Shown here: positions 7,311-40,787 of the stretch, in pieces
Position numbering within the stretch: the first letter of the stretch is position 1
How the letters are laid out: the number at the start of each line of letters is the position of its first letter
Source: Methanoplanus limicola DSM 2279
GTDB taxonomy: Archaea > Halobacteriota > Methanomicrobia > Methanomicrobiales > Methanomicrobiaceae
Length of the DNA stretch: 64,000 bases
NCBI RefSeq assembly: GCF_000243255.1
Contig: NZ_CM001436.1
Span: forward strand, 1,824,957 to 1,888,956
Direction of reading: 5' to 3'
Made by a program: the position numbers and the translations under genes
The notes under the pieces: generated by a model
What the model was told of the DNA's origin: nothing
Databases searched by the model: none
Seen by the model: only the letters and a program-made list of their open reading frames with translations

Positions 7311-11124
<3,814 letters not shown>

Positions 11125-11167
11125 ATAAGGCCCCTTATTAATTAAATCTAAATTTAGGAGAATTTCA

Positions 11168-11455
11168 ATGGATTTCGAAACGTCTCTCAGACGAGCAATC
11201 AAATCTGGTGCAGTAGTTAACGGACAGAAAGAGACCAGAAACTGTATAGAAGAAGGAAAAGCACAGATTGTGATTGTTGCTAATAATTGTCCCGGAGAAT
11301 TTATAACATATCTTAAAGAAAAAGATGTTTTTGTCCACACATACAATGGATCAAGCATGCAGCTGGGTAAAACCTGCGGTAAGCCGTTTATGGTCAGCGC
11401 CCTTGCAGTTGAGGATGCAGGGGAATCTGACATTCTCTCACTTAAGAGGGCCTGA
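11168..11455 (+). CDS. rpl30e: Ribosomal protein L30e
   Basis: 95 residues of the L7Ae/L30e fold. The motifs VNGQKETRNCIEEGKAQIVI, ANNCPGEF and YLKEKDVFVHTY, then GKTCGKPFMVSALAVEDAG, are those of archaeal L30e, a large-subunit protein that binds kink-turn RNA. TTTAGGAG at 11154-11161 is a good ribosome site. Its place between rpoA'' and nusA is the conserved archaeal arrangement. The stop is two bases before the nusA start. Confidence 0.95.
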   Translation: MDFETSLRRAIKSGAVVNGQKETRNCIEEGKAQIVIVANNCPGEFITYLKEKDVFVHTYNGSSMQLGKTCGKPFMVSALAVEDAGESDILSLKRA

Positions 11456-11457
11456 TT

Positions 11458-11904
11458 ATGGGTGAAATTGTATTGAATGAGCAGTCCCTTCAGCTGATGA
11501 AACAGTTTGAAGATATAACCGGAGCAGGAAGCCGTGACTGTATCATTGATGAGAAGAACGATCGTTTAATCTTCGTCATCAATCCTGGTGACATGGGCCG
11601 TGCAATCGGTAAACAGGGAACAAGCATTAAAAAAGCAGCAGAAGATCTCGGAAAAAAGATCGAAGTTGTGGAATTTTCAAACGAAGCTGAAGAATTCATT
11701 AAGAACTGTTTCCTTCCGGCAAGAGTAATATCTGTTGATATAACTGAAAACGATGAAGGAGAATTTATTGCACTTGTTGATGTTGCAGAGGAAGACCGTG
11801 GAATTGCAATCGGCAAAGGCGGTAAAAATATTTTTAAGGCCAACAAGCTTGCAGAAAGACAACACGATATTGTAAATGTTCAGATCATCACTGATGAGGA
11901 ATGA
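11458..11904 (+). CDS. nusA: NusA-like KH-domain transcription factor
   Basis: 148 residues with two KH RNA-binding domains and no S1 domain, as is normal for archaeal NusA. The KH signature loops are GRAIGKQGTSIKKA near residue 46 and GIAIGKGGKNIFKA near 118. Archaeal NusA binds RNA and is thought to act in transcription termination or antitermination with the polymerase encoded upstream. In most euryarchaea this gene is followed by rps12, rps7, EF-2, EF-1A and rps10; here those genes are missing and an oligo-T tract follows the stop. Confidence 0.95.
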   Translation: MGEIVLNEQSLQLMKQFEDITGAGSRDCIIDEKNDRLIFVINPGDMGRAIGKQGTSIKKAAEDLGKKIEVVEFSNEAEEFIKNCFLPARVISVDITENDEGEFIALVDVAEEDRGIAIGKGGKNIFKANKLAERQHDIVNVQIITDEE

Positions 11905-11912
11905 ACTTTCAA

Positions 11913-11920
11913 TTATTTTT
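11913..11920 (+). terminator. Oligo-T tract after nusA
   Basis: TTATTTTT directly after the nusA stop, followed by further T-rich sequence. Archaeal intrinsic termination uses such U-runs without an obligatory hairpin. It would end the RNA polymerase transcript ahead of the ech operon. Confidence 0.4.
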
Positions 11921-12108
11921 ATAAATCTTATTTACTAGTCTGCATTTTTTAGTATATTAACAGATATTTAATTAGTCAGTATTATCTGTATTCTGATTAA
12001 ATAGATCTATAACGCCGGATATCCGGTCAGCTTATTGCAAAATTAATTGAAATTGGATGTTATTCATTATCATACCAAATTGATAATGATAAATAGTGTG
12101 AAATTAGA

Positions 12109-12125
12109 ATATAAAAAGCAGAGGG
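12109..12125 (+). promoter_or_regulatory. AT-rich element and ribosome site before echA
   Basis: AATATAAAAAG at about 12109-12119 resembles box A and is followed at 12121-12125 by GAGGG, the ribosome site of the GTG start at 12132. The TATA-like element is too close to the start codon to drive a transcript that includes GAGGG, so the working promoter is probably further upstream in the AT-rich stretch between 12020 and 12100. Confidence 0.35.
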
Positions 12126-12131
12126 AACGTT

Positions 12132-14057
12132 GTGGAATCAATAATATTTCTTATTCTCTTTCCGTTGTTTGCCGGATTATTAATGCTTGTCCTGCCAAAC
12201 AACGGGGTCAGGGATACAATTGTCAAAGCTGCGGCAGTTGTAACCTGCCTTGGGTCAATATATCTTCTTTTTGAATATTTTGGCCGTGGTCAGGTATTTT
12301 TTTCTATCGAAAGTGCGCTAATTGATCCGATAATAATTGCGGCTGAGGTTGCAATCGGAATTTTCATTATCGGCATCAGTGTGAAATATAAAAAATATCT
12401 CATTTCAGTGCTTGCAGCAGTGCAGCTTTTAATCATGGGATATACTGAAATTGTCTTTCAGCCGACGCATATGTCAGGTTATGATCTTTTTATTGATGAA
12501 TTTTCATTAATAATGGCACTGATTATAGGTATAATCGGAAGTCTGATCTGTGTCTATGCAACCGGATATATGAGAGACTATCAGAGCCATCATAAGGACA
12601 CACCTGACAACAGACCGCTGTTCTTCTTCCTGATGTTTCTTTTCCTTTCAGCAATGTTTGGAATTGTCTTTTCAAACAATATCATGTGGCTTTTCCTCTT
12701 CTGGGAGATTACAACGCTTTGTTCTTTCCTGCTCATTGCATATGCAAGGGATGAGGTGTCATGGAAGAACGGTTTTTGGGCACTGCTGTTAAATACGGTT
12801 GGAGGTGTTGCATTTGCAGGGGCTATATTATTTGTTAATGCGTATTCCACCGGAAATGACATTTATCTTAATGAACTTCTAAAGGCAAGCCCTGGAGTGG
12901 CACTTGTTGCAGCAGGGTTTATAGGATTTGCCGGGCTTACCAAGTCTGCCCAGTTGCCTTTTTCATCATGGCTTGTTGGCGCAATGGTTGCACCAACTCC
13001 AGTCTCAGCGCTTCTGCATTCAAGCACGATGGTTAAGGCAGGTGTATATGTAATTGTCAGGTTTGCACCTGTTTTTGAGGGAAATCTGGTTGGAATTGCA
13101 TTTGCTGTTATTGGTGCGCTTACATTTCTTGTCGCATCCGGAATTGCCATCAGCCAGAGTAATGCAAAGAAGGTTCTTGCATATTCAACAATTGCAAATC
13201 TTGGACTGGTCGTTGCATGTGCAGGAATCGGTACTGAAGAGGCTGTATGGGCAGCAATACTGCTGATAATATTCCATGCGGTTGCCAAATCACTACTCTT
13301 CCTGGCTGTAGGATCTGTTGAGCACAAGAAGCATTCAAGGGATATTGAGGATATGGGCGGACTTATCGCAACAATGCCAAAGATTGCGCTCATGATGCTC
13401 ATTGGAATGGCCGGTATGTTCCTTGCACCGTTTGGTATGCTTATCTCAAAATGGGCATCCATTCATGCATTTGTCAACGCTATGCCGCCATTCGGAATGC
13501 TGCTGATAGCAATTATTGCTTATGGAAGCGGAATGACAGTCTTTTTCTGGACTAAATGGATGGGAAGACTGATTGAAGTGAAATCTGAGAGAAATCCGAT
13601 TGAAAAGGAAGCTTCAGGTGCGGAGATGGCAGCAATATACTCCCTTGGCGGTCTGACAGTTTTTGCATGCCTTTTGTTCCCGTTAATATCGTCAACTATG
13701 ATTGAGCCTTATATCAACACAGTTTATAATACGGCTTCGCACCTGCTCAGCCTGAACAATATGCTGATCATGCTTATGATGGTGGTTCTTGTAATACTCC
13801 TGCCACTGAGTCTCTCCCACTTTGCAAAGGGCAGGACGCTTAAACCACAGTATATGGGTGCAAGAGCAACCGGAGATGATCTCAGATTCCTTGGCAGTAT
13901 GGGTGTTATGAAGGAGACTGAATTCTCAAATTATTATTTTGAGGATATTTTCGGAGAGGAAAAACTCAATAGAATAGGCAATCTGATGACTATTGTCCTT
14001 CTTGTTGTTCTGTTCATTCTGATATCCTTCTTTATACCTCTGGAGGTGGTAATGTGA
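12132..14057 (+). CDS. echA: Ech hydrogenase subunit A (NuoL/Mrp-type ion pump)
   Basis: 641 residues, almost wholly hydrophobic with at least 14 predicted membrane helices. It is the largest membrane subunit of the energy-converting hydrogenase and is related to NuoL/ND5 and Mrp antiporters. Family landmarks are the helix-8 region TKSAQLPFSSWLVGAMVAPT and PVSALLHSSTMVKAGVY, with the conserved Lys and His. It translocates H+ or Na+ while ferredoxin and H2 exchange electrons. The start is GTG with GAGGG upstream. Its stop overlaps the GTG start of echB. The length matches EchA of Methanosarcina-type complexes. Confidence 0.93.
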   Translation: MESIIFLILFPLFAGLLMLVLPNNGVRDTIVKAAAVVTCLGSIYLLFEYFGRGQVFFSIESALIDPIIIAAEVAIGIFIIGISVKYKKYLISVLAAVQLLIMGYTEIVFQPTHMSGYDLFIDEFSLIMALIIGIIGSLICVYATGYMRDYQSHHKDTPDNRPLFFFLMFLFLSAMFGIVFSNNIMWLFLFWEITTLCSFLLIAYARDEVSWKNGFWALLLNTVGGVAFAGAILFVNAYSTGNDIYLNELLKASPGVALVAAGFIGFAGLTKSAQLPFSSWLVGAMVAPTPVSALLHSSTMVKAGVYVIVRFAPVFEGNLVGIAFAVIGALTFLVASGIAISQSNAKKVLAYSTIANLGLVVACAGIGTEEAVWAAILLIIFHAVAKSLLFLAVGSVEHKKHSRDIEDMGGLIATMPKIALMMLIGMAGMFLAPFGMLISKWASIHAFVNAMPPFGMLLIAIIAYGSGMTVFFWTKWMGRLIEVKSERNPIEKEASGAEMAAIYSLGGLTVFACLLFPLISSTMIEPYINTVYNTASHLLSLNNMLIMLMMVVLVILLPLSLSHFAKGRTLKPQYMGARATGDDLRFLGSMGVMKETEFSNYYFEDIFGEEKLNRIGNLMTIVLLVVLFILISFFIPLEVVM

Positions 14058-27587: not shown

Positions 27588-30500
27588 TTATTTATTATGC
27601 AGCATATCAACAAGGGCTTCTCCGGCAGAGATTATCTTAGCCGGAAGGATGGGGATATTACTGTCAATTCTCAATTCAATCTGTTCGTATAATCTTTTTG
27701 CTTTAATTTCTGCCTCCCCGTCAGTATATCTCCTCAGTTCAGAGAGTGCTTTTAGTGAAGAGTGAGGGTTGGCGCTGTGCAGTTCTTTTAGCAGTTCATC
27801 ACATGCAGAAGAAATCTTACTATAATTTCCGGATTCCGTATTATTGCTTTTATCGGCAGCATTTCCGGTTCCGGTATTCTTTGGTGAATATTTCAGATCT
27901 CCCCCTTCCATATAGTTTCTGCTTTTGGTTTCATTGTTCCCAGTGTAATTTTCACCAGCCAAACCATATCCCCGGCCATATTTTCCGTCATTATTTATAC
28001 CATAAAATCGCGGATGATCAATATCTCCTTTCTTCCATCTGCATATGGACTTATAATCACACCTCCTGCAGATGTCTCCCGGATTTGGACTGAATTCCTG
28101 ACGTCCGATCTTTTGTATATAGTCAACAGCAATATCTTTTGCACTGCTTAGGCTTTCATCGCTGACATCGACATCTTTGAACACACAGTCCTTAATGTAG
28201 GCCACAGAACCGGAATTTACTTTTTCACCTGCACCATTAAAACCAAGAGAGTATAACTGAACCTGAAAAGCAACTTCTTCATCAGTTGCAACAGTGTCTG
28301 AGGTTTTGTAATCCCGAACCTCAATCCCCTCACCGTCTTTAAGGATAATATCTGCCCTTCCTGAAACTGTAGTGCCGTTGGCAGGAAACTCTACTTTTGA
28401 TTCAACATATTTAATGACTCTCATATCCTGTTCATTTTCACTTGCAAACCTTGCAAGCTGTTTTTTTGCAGAAGATTTAATTTTCTGAAGCTTTTCTTCA
28501 TTTACAAAGGGCATTGTAAATCGTGAATCTACCGAGCGTGCAACGGCGTTGACGGGATGACTGCCATTTTTGATCTCTTCAGCAGCTTCATAAAGGCAAT
28601 GATGAAGGGCATTACCATAGCCAATCATCTCTGCAATCCCGGACTGATATCCAAGAACAGAATGAAGCCTGAACATATGCGGGCATCTCCTGTAACTTAC
28701 AAGTTCTCCGACAGTATAGGTAAGATTTTCATCACTCTCCTGTGATGATGATATTGTCATCTCCGGAAGATTATCCATCTCGTTTATATACGGCAATGCA
28801 CCTGTTTTGAGTGCATCTTTTATAAACAGTCCTGGTTCTTTTCTCCTGCTGTTATGGTGGGCATAATAGCTGAGAACAAGAAGATCCTTTGCTCTTGTTG
28901 AGGCGACATAATGGAGTTTTCTCTCTGACTCCATACTTCCTTCATATCTTTCTGCGTCATAAAGCTCTGATGGGATAAATTTCTCTTTAATCTCTCCTTT
29001 CCCTGTTAAAGGGAATATCCCCTGATTCATTGAAGGAACGAAGACTATCGGCCATTCAAGCCCTTTTGCCTGATGTATTGTTACAATCTGAACAGCTTCG
29101 GCAGATTTTACGTCATCGGAAGACTGAACGCCATAATTGTCAGAGGCATAGGCATTGATATATTCAGTCAGCCATGAAAGTATTCTCTTAACCGGATAGC
29201 GTGAGCCTCCCAGGCGGTTTGCAGATTCAAAATCGTTTAGAAGTCCTGAGAACCGGCCAAGGTTTGCGATTATTGAGTATTCATCCTGATTTTTTGGGTC
29301 AAGGTATTTATATCCCAGAATTTCAAGAAGGATATAATAAAAGTCAATCAGGTTTGGAAAACATCCGGACAGAACAGCTTTTTTTAATGCATGGATTTTA
29401 ATGTCATAATTTTTGGAGAGAATATCTCCGGTGGCTCTTCTCCAGTCTGAAATTCCGGATGACAGCAGGTCATCGCCATTGATGAAAGAGTCCCACTTCT
29501 TCTTTTTATAATAGCCGTCTTTATCCAGCCAGATTATAATTTTGGCAATGCCCTCTACCTCCGGACTGTTGAAGAGGTTTACATTTCCGGCGATTATCGC
29601 CGGAATTTCTTCTTCCCTGAATGTTTTTATAAGCAATGGCGCAGATATTTTTACAGACCTTAAAATGACTGCAAAATCCCTGTACCTGCATTTTTCGGAT
29701 TTTACATACATTTTTATCTGTTTTGCAATCCATTTTGCCTCCGATAAATCATTATTGTTCTCTATAATTAATACTCCCGATTCCGACTCACGTGCCGAAA
29801 CGAGGTCATCATAATTTTTAACAAATTCCTTTGCAATTGTGTTTGAGAAGTTTATGATCTCTGATCCACTGCGGCGGTTTTTACTGAGTGATACTGACTC
29901 TGCATCTCTCCCGAAATTTTCAAAACATTTCTCATCCGAACCCCTCCACTGGTAAATTGTCTGCCTTGGATCACCCACTACAAAGAGATTTGCCTCCTTT
30001 CCAATAAGCTCCGTGAGTCTTTCCTGGGCGTGGTTTATGTCCTGGTACTCATCGACTATAAGGTGCCTTACATTTCGTACAATTTCGGGTTTTTCTGTTA
30101 TATGGCTGACAGCAAGATCAACCATTCTGTTATAGGACAGTACCTTAAATCCTGTCATCTCTTTTTCATAGGATTTTACCCATTCTGAAAACTGAGGTGC
30201 TTTTTGTTCAAGTTTGACAGGATCAACAAGTTCAGAATAATAGATATTCAGTGAATCGAGAAATTTCTGACATTCGGCTGCATAATTGCCCCTGTCAGTA
30301 TTTAGAAATTTCCAGCCCGTCCTGAGAAGAAAGGCCATTTCTTTATGTTCGTCAAGTTCGGTGTAATTTCTGTAGCCGCAGTTCTGCTGAAGAAGTTTAA
30401 GGCAGTATCCGTGGATTGTACCGATGTACATATCACCCAGTCTGGCACAGGCTTCTTCTCCGGCAAGTTGTTTAATTTGTTCATAAATCCTGCCCTTCAT

Positions 30501-31586
30501 ACTTCGGGCAGCTTTTTTTGTGTAAGTGAATGCCACAATGGATGAAGGCGGAACTTTCTGCACTAATAAAAGGTGAAGTATCTTTCTCGTGATTACTTCA
30601 GTCTTGCCAGTGCCGGCTCCGGCAATAACCCTTACTTTTCTGCTTTCAGACAATACTGCTTCTCTCTGGTCATCAGAGAGTGGATTTGGCTTTTCAGTGA
30701 TATCTTTTACTGTAAATCCTTCAGCAACGGGGGGTTCATCTGAGTTGTCCTCCGGGATTTTAAATGAAGGGATGAAAATTTTATCATTTCTGGTAGTTTC
30801 AGGGCTGTTCTCTTTAAAAATGTCATCTTTCCCGGATTTGAATCCGTCATCTGAATATATTATATTCTCTTCAGTTTTTACGGGTAATATATCAGATCCT
30901 TCATCTTCATGCCGGCAAAACCCTGTTTTGTCATCGTTTTCTCTCTCCTCTGGATCTTCTGCCATTTCCCCGGAGATTTCGGTTTTTTTATCTGATTCAA
31001 GGTCATATTCTTCAAGATAAAGTTCTTTAACGATGATCTCAAGATCTTCATCGAGAAGTTCATACCCGGTATTGTTGTAGCAGAGTCTTTCAGCAAGAGA
31101 TTCAGCTGTAACAACTGCAAACCAGGGATATGCCCACATATCTATCTGACCTTCAGGGTAAGTACTGCCTTTTCTGAAGTATCCCCATGCAGCTATCCTT
31201 CCTGCTTCTCTCTCGTCAATATATCCAAAATGCTTCTCCCTTATCTTCTGGTACTGTCGGTTAAACTCCCCCCTCTGGGTTATCAGCTGATCAAAGAGGT
31301 TTCTGTGAAGTTCAGTCTCCTCCCCGGAATCTGTAACCACTTTCCAGGGTTTTTGTGGGTAATCATCACCATAAACAGTTCCGCAGTAGTTTTTCAGATC
31401 AAGAATTACGGGGCCGTCCGCTGTCAGAATTATGCTGTCTATCTCAGCTTTTGCAAGTTTGATATTGGTTAAAAGAAATACATTTTCATCCCTGAATTCG
31501 TCTTCAAGAATAGCTGCAACTTCTTTTATCTGTTCACGTTCATGAAAGTGCTCACCTCTTCTCCCCCTGAAATATCTGACCGGCAT
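27588..31586 (-). CDS. NERD-UvrD helicase-RecB nuclease fusion
   Basis: 1332 residues. Residues ~10-70 form a NERD nuclease-like domain (EIDSIIL with Asp50, VILDLKNYCGTV with Asp63 and Lys65). An acidic linker leads to a superfamily 1A helicase: Q-motif PLSDDQREAV, Walker A AGAGTGKT at 322-329, LIVDEYQDINHAQERL, VVGDPRQTIYQWRG, VTIHQAKGLEWPIVFVP and LHYVASTRAKDLLVL. The C-terminal part is a RecB/AddB-type PD-(D/E)xK nuclease: ALHHCLYEA, VSGRADIIL, EVRDYKTSD and AFQVQLYSLG. Cysteines in SYRRCP and CRRCDYKSIC could hold an Fe-S cluster as in AddB/Cas4. The last ~140 residues are low-complexity and unknown. It probably processes DNA ends, in repair or defence. Confidence 0.9.
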   Translation of the reverse strand: MPVRYFRGRRGEHFHEREQIKEVAAILEDEFRDENVFLLTNIKLAKAEIDSIILTADGPVILDLKNYCGTVYGDDYPQKPWKVVTDSGEETELHRNLFDQLITQRGEFNRQYQKIREKHFGYIDEREAGRIAAWGYFRKGSTYPEGQIDMWAYPWFAVVTAESLAERLCYNNTGYELLDEDLEIIVKELYLEEYDLESDKKTEISGEMAEDPEERENDDKTGFCRHEDEGSDILPVKTEENIIYSDDGFKSGKDDIFKENSPETTRNDKIFIPSFKIPEDNSDEPPVAEGFTVKDITEKPNPLSDDQREAVLSESRKVRVIAGAGTGKTEVITRKILHLLLVQKVPPSSIVAFTYTKKAARSMKGRIYEQIKQLAGEEACARLGDMYIGTIHGYCLKLLQQNCGYRNYTELDEHKEMAFLLRTGWKFLNTDRGNYAAECQKFLDSLNIYYSELVDPVKLEQKAPQFSEWVKSYEKEMTGFKVLSYNRMVDLAVSHITEKPEIVRNVRHLIVDEYQDINHAQERLTELIGKEANLFVVGDPRQTIYQWRGSDEKCFENFGRDAESVSLSKNRRSGSEIINFSNTIAKEFVKNYDDLVSARESESGVLIIENNNDLSEAKWIAKQIKMYVKSEKCRYRDFAVILRSVKISAPLLIKTFREEEIPAIIAGNVNLFNSPEVEGIAKIIIWLDKDGYYKKKKWDSFINGDDLLSSGISDWRRATGDILSKNYDIKIHALKKAVLSGCFPNLIDFYYILLEILGYKYLDPKNQDEYSIIANLGRFSGLLNDFESANRLGGSRYPVKRILSWLTEYINAYASDNYGVQSSDDVKSAEAVQIVTIHQAKGLEWPIVFVPSMNQGIFPLTGKGEIKEKFIPSELYDAERYEGSMESERKLHYVASTRAKDLLVLSYYAHHNSRRKEPGLFIKDALKTGALPYINEMDNLPEMTISSSQESDENLTYTVGELVSYRRCPHMFRLHSVLGYQSGIAEMIGYGNALHHCLYEAAEEIKNGSHPVNAVARSVDSRFTMPFVNEEKLQKIKSSAKKQLARFASENEQDMRVIKYVESKVEFPANGTTVSGRADIILKDGEGIEVRDYKTSDTVATDEEVAFQVQLYSLGFNGAGEKVNSGSVAYIKDCVFKDVDVSDESLSSAKDIAVDYIQKIGRQEFSPNPGDICRRCDYKSICRWKKGDIDHPRFYGINNDGKYGRGYGLAGENYTGNNETKSRNYMEGGDLKYSPKNTGTGNAADKSNNTESGNYSKISSACDELLKELHSANPHSSLKALSELRRYTDGEAEIKAKRLYEQIELRIDSNIPILPAKIISAGEALVDMLHNK

Positions 31587-32343: not shown

Positions 32344-32928
32344 CTATGTCCGGAAATTATCATACATTTCTCCGGGAATGGCATCTTCAGGATCTAATTC
32401 TCCTTTACGGACAGATTTTATATTTTTGAGGATATAATCGAGATCCCCGCCGCTCTCTTCGTCTGTAAGTTCTGCGGATTCAGACGTTATACTGATAATC
32501 TCACCTATGATACCATTTCGATCCTTATTCCTCAGGTTCATTTTATTAAGCCATAATTCAAGTTTTTCAGGTTTTGCTGCTGAGAGATTATTCCAGACAC
32601 CGGCATTTTTAAGAGTGATTTCATGCTCTTTTAAAACAATAAGATTTGAAAGTGCCCGTGATTCATTTTCAAGACTCATCTGTGAACTGAGTTTTACCTC
32701 CCTTCTGTATATCAGCGATTCAATCCGCCTGGCAATGCTTACCTCTTCACTCTCACTCTTTGAATTTCCTGCTTCCCGGTATAATTCTTTGATACGATCC
32801 TCAATCAGGAATATTTCGTACCTGAGTTCATCAGATTTTTTTGACAGATGAGCATCACGGATTTTTAAGACATTGAGCGGAAGCTCATAGAGTTCTTTAT
32901 TGCGGCCTTTAAACTGGAAAATTCTCAT
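32344..32928 (-). CDS. Coiled-coil protein, ESCRT-III-like candidate 1
   Basis: 194 residues, predicted almost all helical. A basic N-terminal segment (MRIFQFKGRNKEL) precedes two long helices (about 25-60 and 65-120) that could form a hairpin. A shorter region contains GVWNNLSAAKPEKLELWLNK and MNLRNKDRNGIIGEIISI, and an acidic C-terminal part ends the chain. It shares this order and the xVW..L/I....P....L..MNL....GII signature with the upstream neighbour, so the two are divergent paralogues. ESCRT-III subunits have the same length, charge polarity and helix order. GGAG precedes the ATG, 16 bases separate the two genes, and the opposite strand starts the Vps4-like operon. The assignment is structural inference. 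Confidence 0.55.
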   Translation of the reverse strand: MRIFQFKGRNKELYELPLNVLKIRDAHLSKKSDELRYEIFLIEDRIKELYREAGNSKSESEEVSIARRIESLIYRREVKLSSQMSLENESRALSNLIVLKEHEITLKNAGVWNNLSAAKPEKLELWLNKMNLRNKDRNGIIGEIISITSESAELTDEESGGDLDYILKNIKSVRKGELDPEDAIPGEMYDNFRT

Positions 32929-32944
32929 AAATATTCAGCTCCTC

Positions 32945-33556
32945 TCAGTTATCTTCCTCAAGGCTTTTTTCGAGATTCTTCTCAATAGAGAGGAGACATT
33001 CTGCATCCTCAATGTTGACTGAACCGGTTTCAACACTGCTCCACGCCTCAATAAGCTGTTTTTCAGTTTCATCAAGATCTGCGCCGGATTCAGCCACATC
33101 CATGAAAAATATCTGGTTTAAATCATCAATAATGCCCTCAAATCCTTTACCGGAGAGATTAACCCGTATAAGTGCCCCCTCAAAGTCGTCAGGTGAAATA
33201 TTCTGAATCTTCTTCCAGACCTCAGTCTTCCTCAGGTCACGCTCATATTTCTTTATGATCAAAAGATTGGAGACAAACATAAACTGCCTGTGAAGGGCCA
33301 TGAAATTTTTAACCTTCAGTTTTGCTTCCATATCAAGCTGTTTAAGCTCCTGTATAAGCATCTTCTTCCGGATGAGATCGGACCCTACACCTTCCTGAAA
33401 TTTTAACTTCTTATCTCGTTCAATCCTGTCAATCTCCTTTCTGAGCCTGTTTATCCGGCTCTTAAGTTTAAGTTCCTCCTCCCTCAAATCCCCGGGTTTT
33501 AGTCTGTCAACCGGATTTTTACGCAGTGCTGTAAAGATACTCAGTTCAATCACCAT
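32945..33556 (-). CDS. Coiled-coil protein, ESCRT-III-like candidate 2
   Basis: 203 residues. The N-terminal half is strongly basic and helical (LKLKSRINRLRKEIDRIERD, then IRKKMLIQELKQLDMEAKLK), as in the membrane-binding helical hairpin of ESCRT-III. After LLIIKKYERDLRKTEVWKKI comes NLSGKGFEGIIDDLNQIFF, and the C-terminal third is acidic and ends in a Leu-containing amphipathic helix (EDAECLLSIEKNLEKSLEED). That end could bind an MIT domain, but a perfect MIM consensus is not present. The start ATG lacks a good ribosome site, and a TATA-like AAATATTTATT about 28 bases upstream suggests a leaderless transcript. It is the first gene of the leftward pair. Confidence 0.57.
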   Translation of the reverse strand: MVIELSIFTALRKNPVDRLKPGDLREEELKLKSRINRLRKEIDRIERDKKLKFQEGVGSDLIRKKMLIQELKQLDMEAKLKVKNFMALHRQFMFVSNLLIIKKYERDLRKTEVWKKIQNISPDDFEGALIRVNLSGKGFEGIIDDLNQIFFMDVAESGADLDETEKQLIEAWSSVETGSVNIEDAECLLSIEKNLEKSLEEDN

Positions 33557-33653
33557 TCACCATATTGATTCTACAACATAATAAATATTTCTCCAAAATG
33601 GATATAAAATTTATAATTTATTTTGACTACATCCTATGTGGAGATAACTATAT
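33557..33653. promoter_or_regulatory. Divergent promoter region of the ESCRT-like locus
   Basis: 97 bases between the two divergent units. Leftward box A candidate: AAATATTTATT read on the minus strand at about 33580-33590. Rightward candidates: ATATAAAA at 33602-33609 and TTTATAATTTA at 33610-33620. GGAGAT at 33640-33645 is the ribosome site for ATG 33654. The short shared region suggests coordinated control of both units. Confidence 0.5.
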
Positions 33654-34196: not shown

Positions 34197-35783
34197 ATGA
34201 ACAGTGAAGATCCGGCATGCATAAACAGACTGGCAAAACCGTCTAAGCAGGTGCTTAGTGAGGGTCTTTTCATCCGCCATGAGCCGGCAGAAAAGAGATT
34301 ATTGCTCTGGAATCAGATAAAGATCAACAGAGAGAGATTTATTGACGGAGAATGCGGGGATGTGCTGGATGACCTTGATATACATTTCAGAGGAATCTTT
34401 GATGCCTCACTTCTCTGCCTCTCAGCCACATTTAAAGACGAAGGAGCTGAAGCTGTAACTGATATCTTTTCGGGAACTGAGTACAGGGCATATGAACATT
34501 TTGAGCGGATGAGAATTATCGGGATTTACTCCTCTGAAGACTTAAAGAAGAAGATAATCAAAAAAGAGAGTGATGTAATGGAAATTCTGAGAAATTACTA
34601 TCTCTTTGGCGATTCGCAGTTTGATGAAATCTTTGACTCCACTGAAATAAGGCCATCTCTCAGATATTTCTTCCATAAAAAATGGGGTGAAATAAAAACC
34701 AGGATAAATGAAGCAGTTTCGGATCTGATCATCGATTCGGATTATCTTGTAAAGCTTATCAGAATCTGGGAGGATGAAGGCAGAAGAATTGCTGATGTTG
34801 CCGGTGAAAACGAGAGACAAAAGATCTCTGACGAACTCAAATGCCGGGAAGATGAACTCTCAGATGAATTAACAGGAAGGGATGAAGAGATATCCCGCTG
34901 CAAAGAGGATATAGAAGATTTAAGAGACAGGTTAAAAATGGCCGTACCGGATAAAAATCTGAAAGAAAATTTGGCTGAAAATCCCGGCAGATATGTGACT
35001 TCCGGGGAAGCCAGACAGTATGAGATCAATCTCCTGAACAGATTTGGTCATAAATTCTCTGATTTTGTCTCATCGGTTGAAAAGAGATACAGAGTCTGTG
35101 GAATCCGTGAGGAGAAGGTGAATCCGCCTGAGTATTTCAGGGAGAGATTCAATCTTTCTGTAGATGATTATCTCAATATTCCAAGGAACAGTTCGCTAAA
35201 GATAGATCTTATCGAAAAGAAGATATTTGGCAGAAAAGAAAAAGTCCGGATTTATGTTGCCTATGTATCAAGACAGGCAGAATATGCAAAGTATTCCTGT
35301 GACTGTCTGCCGGCAGGGCTAAAAGACCTAAATATTATAATGGATAACATCAGGTCAGACTGCAACGGGAACGGAATCCGGGCCTTTTTATTTGCGGCCT
35401 CACCGACAGGTTTTGATGAGAAATGCAGGTCTATCATAACCGGAAATAACAGTGCACGGAACAGTTACGGCGGAAGTATATCAGTCTGTCTCTACGACCC
35501 TGAAAAAGGCCTTATGTCATATAACTCAGACGATTCTTTCTCCCGTATCTTCTCAAAACTCTGCAATCCGGAACTTTTGGAAGAGCAGAAATCAAGGCTG
35601 AAAGGTGAAGTCGAAAAGAAGATAAAAGAGGATATTGCTGCTCTTGGATGGTGCTCCCTTGAGTCATCCTTTGATAAAAACAGAGACGATTATCTCCAGA
35701 TAAAGCGGCATTTTTACAGCTTTGCTGATGAAAACGGGCACATTGTGAAATATGTTGAAAATTCCGGCCTTATAATGATGTAA
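34197..35783 (+). CDS. Unknown 528-residue protein with central coiled coil
   Basis: No known family is recognised. Residues 1-195 are helical (KRLLLWNQIKINRERFIDGE, then DLDIHFRGIFDASLLCLSAT). Residues ~200-245 form a highly charged coiled coil (ELKCREDELSDELTGRDEEI). Residues 255-528 form an alpha/beta part with KEKVRIYVAYVSRQAEYAKY, IRAFLFAASPTGFDEKC and GGSISVCLYDPEKGL. That last part has a nuclease- or Rossmann-like look, but I cannot name catalytic residues. It starts exactly after the previous stop codon and ends 14 bases before the AAA ATPase, so all three are one transcript. It may be a large scaffold for the complex. Confidence 0.7.
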   Translation: MNSEDPACINRLAKPSKQVLSEGLFIRHEPAEKRLLLWNQIKINRERFIDGECGDVLDDLDIHFRGIFDASLLCLSATFKDEGAEAVTDIFSGTEYRAYEHFERMRIIGIYSSEDLKKKIIKKESDVMEILRNYYLFGDSQFDEIFDSTEIRPSLRYFFHKKWGEIKTRINEAVSDLIIDSDYLVKLIRIWEDEGRRIADVAGENERQKISDELKCREDELSDELTGRDEEISRCKEDIEDLRDRLKMAVPDKNLKENLAENPGRYVTSGEARQYEINLLNRFGHKFSDFVSSVEKRYRVCGIREEKVNPPEYFRERFNLSVDDYLNIPRNSSLKIDLIEKKIFGRKEKVRIYVAYVSRQAEYAKYSCDCLPAGLKDLNIIMDNIRSDCNGNGIRAFLFAASPTGFDEKCRSIITGNNSARNSYGGSISVCLYDPEKGLMSYNSDDSFSRIFSKLCNPELLEEQKSRLKGEVEKKIKEDIAALGWCSLESSFDKNRDDYLQIKRHFYSFADENGHIVKYVENSGLIMM

Positions 35784-35797
35784 ATGGTATTCTGATA

Positions 35798-36997
35798 ATG
35801 AAGGTTGATCTGAGCGGTATTTTCTCTGATGAAATTGTAAAAGCGAGAGATGATTATGAAACTGCCCTAAGCACCGGAGACCGCATTGCTGTATCTGAAA
35901 AGGCGATACATATCAGTAACCTTCTGATTAAAATGGCGGAGAACAACCCGTCACAGAGGGATCATTATCTCAGCGCTGCGAAAAAATGGGATGCAGTCTC
36001 AAAAAATATTCCTCCGGCCGGCAAAACCACTGTAAAAAAAAGAGATGCCGGTCTTACTTCACCGGAGATCTCATCAGAATCTGAAAATATCTCTGAATTG
36101 TCAGAGTTCAGAGCCAGAGCGGAGTCCTGCCTGACCAGAACCACGGTTGTATGGAATGACATAGGTGGGCTTTTCAGGGTGAAACAGCTGCTGATGGAAA
36201 CTGTTGTCATTGCAGGATTAAAGAGGCCTTCTTCAGTAAAACCCTGGAAGGGGGTGCTTTTATTCGGCCCTCCCGGTACAGGCAAGACTCTGCTTGCATC
36301 AGCAGCAGCAGGCAGTCTGGGAGCATCATTTTATGATGTGAAATCAGAGAGCATATTATCAAAGTATTTCGGGGAATCCTCAAAACTGATATCCGCACTG
36401 TATAATTCAGCAAAGGAAAAAGAGCCGTCTATTGTTTTTTTTGATGAGTTTGACTCACTGACAAAGTCCAGAAGTGAAAGCACATCTGAGGCATCGGCGA
36501 AGCTGCTCTCCGGAATTCTGACAAATATGGACGGGCTTTCAGATAAGAAGAATGACCGTTTTGTTCTGACCCTTGCTGCAACAAACACACCATGGGACCT
36601 TGATAAGGCTGTTCTTTCAAGATTTCCAAGAAGAATTTATGTAAGCCTTCCGGACCCTCCGGCAATTAAAGAAATAATTAAGATACATGCCTCCGATCCG
36701 GGAACAGAGAGAGTAAATCTCGATCTGATTGCAGAGATGTCTGCTCTAAACCATTATTCCGGCAGAGACATTCAGAGCCTCTGCCAGCAGGCGATATGGA
36801 ATATGGTGCATGAAAAAAATCCTGAACTCTTCAGGCTTGCTGAACTTCCGTTTGAAGAACTTAACAGAAGAACCCTGAAAGTCAGGCCCCTTGAAAATGA
36901 TGATTTTAAGGCTGCCTTTGATAAGATTAAATCTCCTGTTACTGAGGACGATCTTGAAACCTATGATTCATGGAATATGGAATTTGGTGAAGTCTGA
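35798..36997 (+). CDS. Vps4/CdvC-like AAA+ ATPase
   Basis: 399 residues. Residues ~8-70 form an MIT-like three-helix region (FSDEIVKARDDYETALSTGD, then AIHISNLLIKMAE and HYLSAAKKWDAVSK). After a linker comes one AAA+ domain: VWNDIGGL, Walker A GPPGTGKT (157-164), pore loop SKYFGESSKL (188-197), Walker B IVFFDEFDSL (212-221), sensor LAATNTPWDLDKAVLSRFPR (259-278) and RRIYVSLPD. The C-terminal end, DDFKAAFDKIKSPVTEDDLE then TYDSWNMEFGE, is the Vps4 C-terminal helix. These features place it in the meiotic clade of AAA proteins next to Vps4/CdvC, which disassembles ESCRT-III polymers, rather than with PAN or Cdc48. Confidence 0.85.
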   Translation: MKVDLSGIFSDEIVKARDDYETALSTGDRIAVSEKAIHISNLLIKMAENNPSQRDHYLSAAKKWDAVSKNIPPAGKTTVKKRDAGLTSPEISSESENISELSEFRARAESCLTRTTVVWNDIGGLFRVKQLLMETVVIAGLKRPSSVKPWKGVLLFGPPGTGKTLLASAAAGSLGASFYDVKSESILSKYFGESSKLISALYNSAKEKEPSIVFFDEFDSLTKSRSESTSEASAKLLSGILTNMDGLSDKKNDRFVLTLAATNTPWDLDKAVLSRFPRRIYVSLPDPPAIKEIIKIHASDPGTERVNLDLIAEMSALNHYSGRDIQSLCQQAIWNMVHEKNPELFRLAELPFEELNRRTLKVRPLENDDFKAAFDKIKSPVTEDDLETYDSWNMEFGEV

Positions 36998-37577: not shown

Positions 37578-40500
37578 TCATACTTTGAAGACATCAACCG
37601 ATTTTTTAAGGTCCTCTGCCATCCCTGCGACTTCATCCGCACCGCTTCCAACTTCTTCAGACGAGGCGGAGACTTCCTCAGTCAGTGCAGCAATGTCTTC
37701 GATTCTCTTCATGTTGTTATGAGTTACCTGTGTTGTCTTCTCCATCGTCTGCATTACACGGTTTGTGGCATCTGCCTGATCCTCAGTGGCTTTTGCAATT
37801 TCATTTATTGCCCTGCCGGCATTTTCAGCACCGTTCACCATGCTGTTTAAGGCAATAATTGTTTCATTGACGCTTTCAATGCCGGACTGAATCTCATTAT
37901 ATGCCAGTTTCATAGACTCCGCTGTTTTTGAACTGTCACTCTGAATTCCGGTGATAAGTTTTTCAATACTGTCAGTTGCTTTCTTTGAATCTCCTGCAAG
38001 ATTTCTGACCTCTCCTGCAACGACTGCAAACCCTCGTCCGTGCTCTCCGGCCCTTGCCGCCTCAATTGCAGCATTTAATGCAAGGAGATTTGTCTGGTTA
38101 GAGATGTCGGTAATCAGTTTAATTATATTGCTGATCTCAACCATCTTCCGGTTGAGTGCATCTATCTCTTCAACACTCATCAACGAAATCTTCTCTACTT
38201 CCTGCATCTTGTTATTTGCAACATTTCCAAGTTTTTTTGCCTCCTGTCCCAGTGATGTAACTCCTTCGGCAGATACTTTGACCTCCTGTGATGTACTTGC
38301 AATCTCTTCAATTGAGGCTGAGAGATCAGATATTTCCCTTGCAACATCCTCAATAAACTCTATCTGCCTTCTTGAATCATCGGTTGTCTGCTGGGTGTTG
38401 ACTGCAACCTGCTCTATGGCTCTGGTTACTTCACCTATGCCTTTGCTGGTGTCAAGGATGCTGACACCGACTCTGTTTGCAATATCAATTACTTTTTTAA
38501 CCGGTTCCACTATTGCGTCAAGGGTTTCATTTACTCCTTTTACAATTGCGGCAAAGTCTCCGGAATGCCGTGAAACATCAGCCCTTACAGTAATTCTTCC
38601 CTCTTTTGCAGCTTTTGTAAGCATTCCGGCATCTTCAACCAGGAGATTGACAGCGTCAATACAGAGATTCAGGTTGTTCTTGATCTCGTTGAAGTCACCG
38701 TTGTAAGTATCGGTGATCCTCTCCGGAATGTCGCCACGGCTGATTCTCTCCACATATTCTGCCGATACGTTAAGCGGGCCGATAACTGCGTCAAGCGTAT
38801 CGTTTACACCTTTAACAATTGCGGCAAAGTCTCCGGAATGTCTGGAGGCATCAGCTCTTGTATCAAGCCTGCCTTCAACGCCGGCTTTTGCAAGCATTCC
38901 GGCATCTTCAACCAGGAGGTTGACAGCGTCAATACAGAGATTCAGGTTGTTCTTGATCTCGTTGAAGTCGCCGTTGTAAGTATCGGTGATCCTCTCCGGA
39001 ATGTCGCCACGGCTGATTCTCTCCACATATTCTGCCGATACGTTAAGCGGGCCGATAACTGCGTCAAGCGTATCGTTTACACCTTTAACAATTGCGGCAA
39101 AGTCTCCGGAATGTCTGGAGGCATCAGCTCTTGTATCAAGCCTGCCTTCAACGCCGGCTTTTGCAAGCATTCCGGCATCTTCAACCAGGAGATTGACAGC
39201 GTCAATACAGAGATTCAGGTTGTTCTTGATCTCGTTGAAGTCACCGTTGTAAGTATCGGTGATCCTCTCCGGAATGTCGCCACGGCTGATTCTCTCCACA
39301 TATTCTGCCGATACGTTAAGCGGGCCGATAACTGCGTCAAGCGTATCGTTTACACCTTCAATGAGATTTTTATATTCACCATTTAACTTAGATGAGTCAG
39401 CACGGGCATCAAGTCTGCCCTGAATAGCAGCTTCAGTTAATTCGCGTGTGTCATCAACAAGAAGCTGAATGTTGCCCATCATAGAAATATATGCAGGCAG
39501 GAGTTTATCATTTTCACAACGTCTGCCTATAGACCGGTAGGCCGGAAGTCTTTCAAGATTTCCGTCAGCAATCTGTAAAACAGTCTCCTGAACATAGATG
39601 TTATGATCCACGACATCATTTAAAGCATCACAGACTTCCTTAAAAATACCGGAATAACTGCCTTCTGTCTTTTCAGTAAAGTCATTTAGTTTAATATTCT
39701 GTAATATCTTATCTGCCTCTAAAAGTCCTCCGAGTCCGTCAATACAGAGATTCAGGTTGTTCTTGATCTCGTTGAAGTCACCGTTGTAAGTATCGGTGAT
39801 CCTCTCCGGAATGTCGCCACGGCTGATTCTCTCCACATATTCTGCCGATACGTTAAGCGGGCCGATAACTGCGTCAAGCGTATCGTTTACACCTTTAACA
39901 ATTGCGGCAAAGTCTCCGGAATGTCTGGAGGCATCAGCTCTTGTATCAAGCCTGCCTTCAACGCCGGCTTTTGCAAGCATTCCGGCATCTTCAACCAGGA
40001 GATTGACAGCGTCAATACAGAGATTCAGGTTGTTCTTGATCTCGTTGAAGTCACCGTTGTAAGTATCGGTGATCCTCTCCGGAATGTCACCACGACTTAT
40101 CCTCTCCACATATTCTGCCGATACATTCAGTGGGCCGATAACTGCGTCAAGGGTGTCGTTTACACCTTTAACAATTGCCGCAAAGTCTCCGGTATGTCTG
40201 GAGACATCGGCCCTTGTATCAAGCCTGCCTTCAACGCCGGCTTTTGCAAGCATACCGGCATCTTCAACCAGGAGGTTTACAGCGTCAATACAGAGATTAA
40301 GGTTGTTCTTGATCTCGTTGAAGTCTCCGTTGTAGGTATCGGTGATCCTCTCAGGGATATCACCACGACTTATCCTCTCCACATATTCTGCCGATACGTT
40401 AAGCGGGCCGATAACTGCGTCAAGCGTCTTATTAACTTCGGAGATTATTGTTCCCCACCCTCCGGGGAATTTCCCGGAATCGCCTCTGGCATCAAGTTTT

Positions 40501-40787
40501 CCCTCAACTGCTGATTTTGTCAGTATATTCAGTTCAGATAAAACATTATTTATGATCTCTCCGGTTTCATTGATGCTTTCTTTTAATATTTCAGTATTTC
40601 CGGAGTAAATCTCAGTTATTTTTTCAATATTCTCACCCTTTGAGATAGACTGAATAAAATTATTGGCAAGACTGAGCTGCATTTTTAAATCTGCATTCTC
40701 TCTGATGTAATCTTCCTTTGACATATCCGGATTATATCCTATGAATTCAGAATCATATCCTGATGTATCCGTGTTATTAGTTCCCAT
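37578..40787 (-). CDS. Soluble methyl-accepting receptor with six repeated HAMP-like units
   Basis: 1069 residues and no membrane helix, so it is cytoplasmic. A short N-terminal coiled coil is followed by repeated helical units: the module [20 protein letters not shown] with [20 protein letters not shown] appears six times with a 91-residue period, three copies, then a different insert ([14 protein letters not shown]...), then three more. These are poly-HAMP-like. Residues ~790-1069 form the chemoreceptor signalling hairpin with [20 protein letters not shown] and [20 protein letters not shown]. It should signal to CheA through the adjacent CheW. The repeat copies are nearly identical in DNA, which suggests recent amplification. 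Confidence 0.92.
38655..39358 (-). repeat. Three tandem 273-bp units in the receptor gene, C-terminal-side block
   Basis: Copies start at 38655, 38928 and 39201, each 273 bases (91 codons) apart and nearly identical, with only scattered third-position changes. The shared stretch encodes the [20 protein letters not shown] unit. The third copy is interrupted about 158 bases in, at ~39358. They are in frame, so copy-number change would keep the gene open. Confidence 0.85.
39738..40427 (-). repeat. Three tandem 273-bp units in the receptor gene, N-terminal-side block
   Basis: Copies start at 39738, 40011 and 40284 with a 273-base period. This block is more diverged at its 5' end of the gene (for example CGACTTATCC versus CGGCTGATTC). 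It is separated from the other block by a 0.38-kb insert of unrelated coding sequence. Confidence 0.85.

Follow-up and report, generated by a model that had tools for sequence, protein, structure and literature searches.

Why a methanogen that carries FtsZ should also encode a Vps4-type ATPase is the question raised by an ORF of Methanoplanus limicola DSM 2279, located in a 64,000-nt stretch of contig NZ_CM001436.1 (hereafter, the window). The initial annotation of this DNA read the ORF as Vps4/CdvC-type, stated that methanogens of the order (Methanomicrobiales) divide mainly with FtsZ, and proposed a second membrane-remodeling or vesicle system. FtsZ genes were indeed present in the organism's own genome, where the family gave two strong matches in frames of about 400 aa together with weaker paralogs, and given FtsZ and the Vps4/ESCRT-III-like gene set described below, a second membrane-remodeling system with a role other than division is a sensible reading. 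The annotation also called a dedicated Vps4 unexpected. This view was not upheld, as Makarova et al. (2024; PMC10936438) already list such a system in Methanomicrobiales. Their "Main" euryarchaeal clade comprises Vps4, ESCRT-III, arCOG09748 and arCOG08177, often with a Ser/Thr kinase and a phosphatase; since FtsZ co-occurs, its proposed task is to form vesicles or sort proteins (PMC10936438). The window cluster is a known kind of system, already described in related archaea, and we consider it likely that its Vps4 is the disassembly ATPase of a Main-type ESCRT system whose role is probably other than division. The features are collected in Table 1.

Table 1. Features of the Vps4/ESCRT-III-like cluster, with positions in the window
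Feature	Position	Strand	Basis or remark
ESCRT-III-like B, 194 aa, diverged paralog of A	32344..32928	-	Matched by A profile
ESCRT-III-like A, 203 aa	32945..33556	-	Predicted hairpin, fold matches
Divergent intergenic region, 97 bp, A+T-rich; presumed promoter region	33557..33653	.	Sequence; function inferred
180-aa protein, arCOG08177-like (Cas2-like + TBP-fold per PMC10936438)	33654..34196	+	Conserved family
528-aa helical/coiled-coil/globular protein with wH-like C-terminus, arCOG09748-like	34197..35783	+	Homologs at other loci
Vps4-type AAA ATPase, 399 aa	35798..36997	+	Walker A/B and pore loop intact; one Arg finger, R275
MIT-like three-helix N-terminal region, aa 7-69	35816..36004	+	AlphaFold2 helices
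AAA core, aa 153-283	36254..36646	+	PF00004, E=5.8e-36
Vps4_C/C-terminal oligomerization helix, aa 353-397	36854..36988	+	PF09336, 27.2 bits

Sequence Features and Family Placement of the ATPase

The vps4 ORF starts with ATG and is intact. Its predicted product contains GPPGTGKT at residues 157-164, the pore loop SKYFGES at 188-194 and FFDEFD near 214-219, which includes the Walker B glutamate E217, followed by ATNTPWDLDKAV (residues 261-272) and SRFPRRIYVSLPD (274-286); its C-terminus, DDFKAAFDKIKS...DDLETYDSWNMEFGE, spans residues 368-398. All motifs named in the initial annotation, i.e., one AAA domain with GPPGTGKT, the pore loop and the sensor segment, are present in the expected order. 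Against Pfam, the ORF showed a single AAA domain (124 bits) and a match to Vps4_C at 27.2 bits, above the cut-off of 21.3, which agrees with the Vps4-type C-terminal helix also claimed there. Both profiles were matched by all 23 relatives, and in its own genome the ORF was the sole Vps4_C match. In other genomes, the Vps4_C profile also matches Cdc48 proteins of about 740 aa and was therefore dropped as a stand-alone family marker, so that the family call was based on single-AAA length, the tree and the ESCRT-III neighbors. The catalytic residues, including E217, were invariant across the 23 relatives. When aligned by eye to R288/R289 of yeast Vps4, the second Arg finger is kept as R275, whereas the first is replaced by Ser (S274). 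The AAA core and the C-terminal helix are common to the window protein and to yeast Vps4 and katanin p60, both meiotic-clade AAA proteins, and the best single-stretch PDB match of the C-terminus was to katanin p60; the stretch from the AAA small domain to the C-terminal helix, however, is shorter than in yeast Vps4.

Two search results would suit an unfoldase or proteasomal ATPase of the Cdc48/PAN/FtsH type that merely resembles Vps4. The top NCBIfam score was given by a Cdc48 model (181.8 bits, vs. 170.4 for the CdvC model), and Cdc48 chains led the summed PDB list. The summed scores of Cdc48, however, add two AAA domains; per single domain, katanin scored 177.7 bits, whereas the highest value for any one domain in the two top-scoring Cdc48 entries was 139.4. 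A maximum-likelihood tree was then built from AAA cassettes of the window, related loci, and the Cdc48 (D1 and D2) and PAN genes of the organism itself, together with CdvC, yeast Vps4 and katanin, with reference sequences used as confirmed in PDB alignments. The window protein was placed in a euryarchaeal Vps4 clade with support of 98/97 using all rows, rising to 100/100 once long-branch rows were omitted. A larger clade (99/92) united the euryarchaeal Vps4s with CdvC, yeast Vps4 and katanin, apart from Cdc48 D1, D2 and PAN. Constraining the window protein to group with its own genome's Cdc48/PAN was rejected by the AU test (p = 8e-6). Moreover, the genome has Cdc48s and PAN as separate genes, and the ESCRT-III neighbors of vps4 oppose an unfoldase reading, which we regard as very improbable. 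The profile and tree comparisons proposed in the initial annotation place the AAA domain with Vps4, apart from PAN/Cdc48, and the clustering with those families that it had named as contrary evidence did not occur. The terminal branch of the window protein is long (0.72 and 0.68 in two trees, vs. a median of about 0.15); judged by branch length, this Vps4 appears to evolve faster than its relatives, and its function may therefore have drifted.

The Gene Cluster and the "Main" System

The genes for the 180-aa protein, the 528-aa protein and Vps4 form an apparent three-gene operon with vps4 last, the 528-aa gene starting directly after the 180-aa gene and vps4 starting 14 bp past the 528-aa gene. 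The ESCRT-III-like pair, A and B, lies 2-3.5 kb from vps4 on the opposite strand and is transcribed away from the operon. All five cluster ORFs are intact. ESCRT-III genes in the neighborhood constitute criterion ii for Vps4 assignment in the published survey (PMC10936438), and in the window two putative ESCRT-III-like genes adjoin the Vps4 operon. Most related loci that were examined, representing several families of the phylum, also combine an ESCRT-III-like pair with Vps4.

By gene order, size, domain layout and homology, the 528-aa protein is a putative member of arCOG09748 and the 180-aa protein a putative member of arCOG08177. The former family was described as helical, coiled coil, globular and wH, and the latter as Cas2-like plus a TBP fold (PMC10936438). 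The 528-aa protein is 31-35% identical from end to end to proteins of 493-651 aa encoded at the corresponding position of other loci; within this family the coiled coil varies in length and the wH-looking C-terminus is conserved. Members of the 180-aa family share 24-47% identity across loci, with 86% to the same-genus copy, and a search of the family profile against the PDB found neither a Cas2 nor a TBP-fold protein. The window locus resembles the Main system in gene set, domain layout, host order and FtsZ co-occurrence. It differs in that its immediate neighbors were found to include neither a kinase nor a PP2C or SPFH gene, and in that its ESCRT-III-B and Vps4 are more diverged.

Two flanking genes were recorded. 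One (27588-31586, minus strand) encodes a 1332-aa fusion of NERD, UvrD helicase and PD-(D/E)XK/Cas4-like nuclease, which is full-length only in the two genomes of the genus and has partial relatives of about 45% in two others of the family. The other (37578-40787, minus strand) encodes a chemoreceptor with nine HAMP_2 repeats of near-identical units; the same-genus copy has 1072 vs. 1069 aa, and the repeats look homogenized within each genome.

The Small Proteins A and B

The initial annotation had pointed to the proteins encoded at 32344-33556 as candidate partners of the ATPase. A is the most conserved small protein, with 54-66% identity to its seven closest copies, and B is weakly conserved, with 19-27% identity to its counterparts. 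A profile of A matched B at E=1.2e-11, from which we take the two to be paralogous. An AlphaFold2 model of A (mean pLDDT 76) showed a long hairpin (residues 21-56/61-103) followed by short helices. When this model was searched with Foldseek, a CdvB2 filament ranked first, at a probability of 0.84 but an E-value of 0.32, and the list also held CdvB, CHMP1B, Asgard ESCRT-III and Vipp1. Superposition of the model on the Snf7 core 5fd7 covered 77 residues at 0.9 A, with a Z-score of 6.5. Hairpins of helices are a common fold, however, and structural matches to them are easily generic; the VIA-align rows consisted mostly of unrelated long hairpins (PI3K iSH2, bMERB, ABC transporters), and Z-scores near 6.5-7 were therefore counted as support for A, never as proof. 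A profile of 36 small-protein members had CdvB (9s9j) among its few matches, at E 0.11, and Pfam Snf7 matched none of 14 members of the A/B family. Taken together, this weak fold evidence suggests that A may be an ESCRT-III-like protein, and B, as a paralog of A, may be one as well. The proposed partners thus stand as paralogous helical proteins that usually lie near Vps4, one of them modeled with a hairpin, but not as Snf7 matches. The hairpin fold of PspA/Vipp1, in the bacterial ESCRT-III superfamily (PMC8281802), was among the structural matches of A; unlike in the window system, use of a Vps4 has not been reported for PspA/Vipp1 systems.

The MIT-Like N-Terminus

An AlphaFold2 model of Vps4 based on six sequences predicted N-terminal helices at residues 7-26, 29-49 and 51-69, with pLDDT values of about 81-88 across residues 11-70, taken in blocks of ten. 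The AAA core was poor in the same model (pLDDT about 30-40), and a fold search with the AAA part was taken as weak support only, because the alignment of six rows was shallow. Pfam MIT did not match the window Vps4 N-terminus, and a PDB search with its first 91 residues returned no match. A comparison with the MIT domain of CdvC by hhalign yielded a single-pair E-value of 0.006 with a probability of only 6%. The initial annotation had called this region MIT-like and proposed a structure prediction as a check: the three helices were predicted as it expected, but the Pfam and PDB searches were without match and the alignment to CdvC MIT is merely suggestive. On the strength of the modeled helices, "MIT-like" appears a fair description. 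Elsewhere, in locus L117 (157-1236, plus strand), the gene immediately upstream of ESCRT-III-A encodes a second, shorter AAA protein; its MIT domain is recognizable, with a Pfam MIT match at E 1.2e-5, below the cut-off, and it occupied a long branch in the tree.

Distribution, Loss and the Question of Division

When 60 genomes were queried with the protein, a close vps4 was found only in the organism's own genome and in three relatives (51-54%). Within the order, ESCRT-III-A was found in 17 of 232 genomes, which represent 7 of 40 genera, its named carriers including Methanogenium, Methanocalculus and Methanocorpusculum. In relatives of the same order, the locus includes SPFH/zinc-ribbon, kinase, PP2C and HEAT/TPR genes, none of which lies beside the window copy. 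A search of the entire M. limicola genome with the SPFH protein from the same-genus genome found no match, and kinases found in a search of that genome (e.g., in frames of 827 and 591 aa) lie far from the locus. In the same-genus genome, the syntenic locus (L114, G001:C1:434000-453999, positions 9394-12574) is missing vps4 between the 528-aa gene and CheW, and its ESCRT-III-A carries an in-frame 97-aa deletion that shortens it from 203 to 106 aa; the remaining genes of the block are intact, with pairwise dN/dS of 0.13-0.18. That genome retains a separate, complete ESCRT system elsewhere (L032). The window ESCRT system is accessory, as its sparse distribution and the same-genus loss indicate.

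Two further sequences were encountered in these searches. Genome G035 has a truncated piece of the Vps4 C-terminus (L115:605-928, minus strand), for which no ESCRT-III neighbors were found and which is another apparent relic. A contig labeled "Bacilli bacterium" (L040, JAQVAY010000053.1) carries archaeal ESCRT-III/180-aa genes, with 54% identity to window A, and is probably a mis-binned Methanocorpusculum-like contig.

The same-genus copy that lacks vps4 and 97 aa of ESCRT-III-A, the fragment in G035 and the long branch of the window protein would all fit a decaying relic, i.e., a locus on its way out with a Vps4 no longer functional in the cell. Against this stand the five intact ORFs of the window, the invariant catalytic residues, and the pairwise dN/dS of 0.13-0.19 for genes shared with L114, which is similar to that of flanking genes (0.15-0.16), although these pairwise values merge constraint before and after the loss of vps4. 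We therefore think decay an improbable explanation.

Vps4 and ESCRT-III divide TACK archaea (PMC10936438, PMC11796394), and the parts found in the window are homologous to theirs, so that a division system alongside or in place of FtsZ, like TACK CdvABC, had to be weighed. As in Sulfolobales CdvC/CdvB, a Vps4-type ATPase occurs with ESCRT-III-like partners. The window system, however, falls in a separate clade, is patchy and dispensable, and coexists with FtsZ, the presence of which in the same genome argues against an ESCRT role in division. No CdvA was recognized among the annotated neighbors of the window locus. The restriction of ESCRT-III-A to so few genomes of the order and the loss of vps4 at the syntenic site of the same-genus genome, even though the full copy L032 remains there, also speak against such a role, and the accessory status of the system argues against an essential one. 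There seems little chance that division is its function.

A Possible Role in Defense and the TIR Fusion of a Sister Family

PADLOC IetA models matched the Vps4 ORF at 117 bits, the NERD-UvrD-PD-(D/E)XK helicase-nuclease gene comes after the ESCRT-III pair, and in sister-family loci an MIT-like-TIR gene adjoins vps4. These observations could suggest an anti-phage ATPase, either IetA-like or part of an ESCRT module for immunity or membrane sealing after attack. The CdvC model, however, outscored IetA on the ORF (170 vs. 117 bits), no IetS subtilisin-like protease was present among the neighbors examined (NERD-UvrD helicase, CheW, MCP and ESCRT genes), and the partner proteins had no PADLOC match. 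The TIR gene is absent from the window, and the kinase, phosphatase and SPFH partners of relatives suggest regulated membrane housekeeping instead. A defense function of the window ATPase is, in our estimate, unlikely.

The sister-family loci (family f5: L111:14155-14919, plus strand, with counterparts L107, L108, L110 and L112) are of note in themselves. A gene with an MIT-like start adjoins vps4, and in four of the five loci it lies 3′ of vps4; in L108 it stands beside a broken vps4 fragment. The start of this gene is the same MIT-like domain as in Vps4 (hhalign E 1.3e-17), and full-length members continue into a TIR domain (for L111, PF13676 at E 1.4e-21). In L111 the gene that comes next encodes TrkA_N and RyR domains, and L113 has an MIT-like start with no recognizable TIR. 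No MIT-like-TIR fusion beside vps4 was found in the literature searched. One might speculate, at long odds, that Main-type ESCRT is an accessory membrane-guarding module to which exchangeable effectors dock via the MIT-like domain, the polymer serving as a damage or infection platform and not as a division or sorting machine. It is equally speculative that the plug-in effectors would be TIR in the sister family and kinases, SPFH and HEAT/TPR adaptors elsewhere.

Proposed Mechanism and Cellular Role

For the favored reading, a Main-type disassembly ATPase, we infer the following course of events. A and B would polymerize on the inner membrane, and the MIT-like N-terminal bundle would recruit Vps4 to their C-terminal helices. 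Vps4 would assemble into a hexamer via its Vps4_C helix, and its pore, with the SKYFGES loop, would thread ESCRT-III subunits using ATP. Such threading would remodel or remove the ESCRT-III polymer, leading to scission or resealing of the membrane. The other two proteins, of 180 and 528 aa, may serve as adaptors or recruiters; the published interpretation is of ESCRT-II/appendage-like parts. FtsZ occurs in the genome, and relatives can dispense with this accessory system; its job is therefore likely to form vesicles, sort cargo or repair the membrane, and not to divide the cell. An ESCRT-dependent vesicle pathway is reported for Sulfolobus, and vesiculation without ESCRT is reported for M. smithii (PMC12134362). 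In the literature searched, no interaction, polymerization or cellular assay was found for any Main-type euryarchaeal system.

The five-gene cluster provides a clean, compact and stripped-down example of ESCRT in an FtsZ-bearing methanogen. The TIR fusion of the sister family, if functional, would tie archaeal ESCRT to immune-type signaling. In the same genus, the loss of vps4 with its partners kept, in a genome that holds a second full set, constitutes a natural experiment on the role of euryarchaeal ESCRT.
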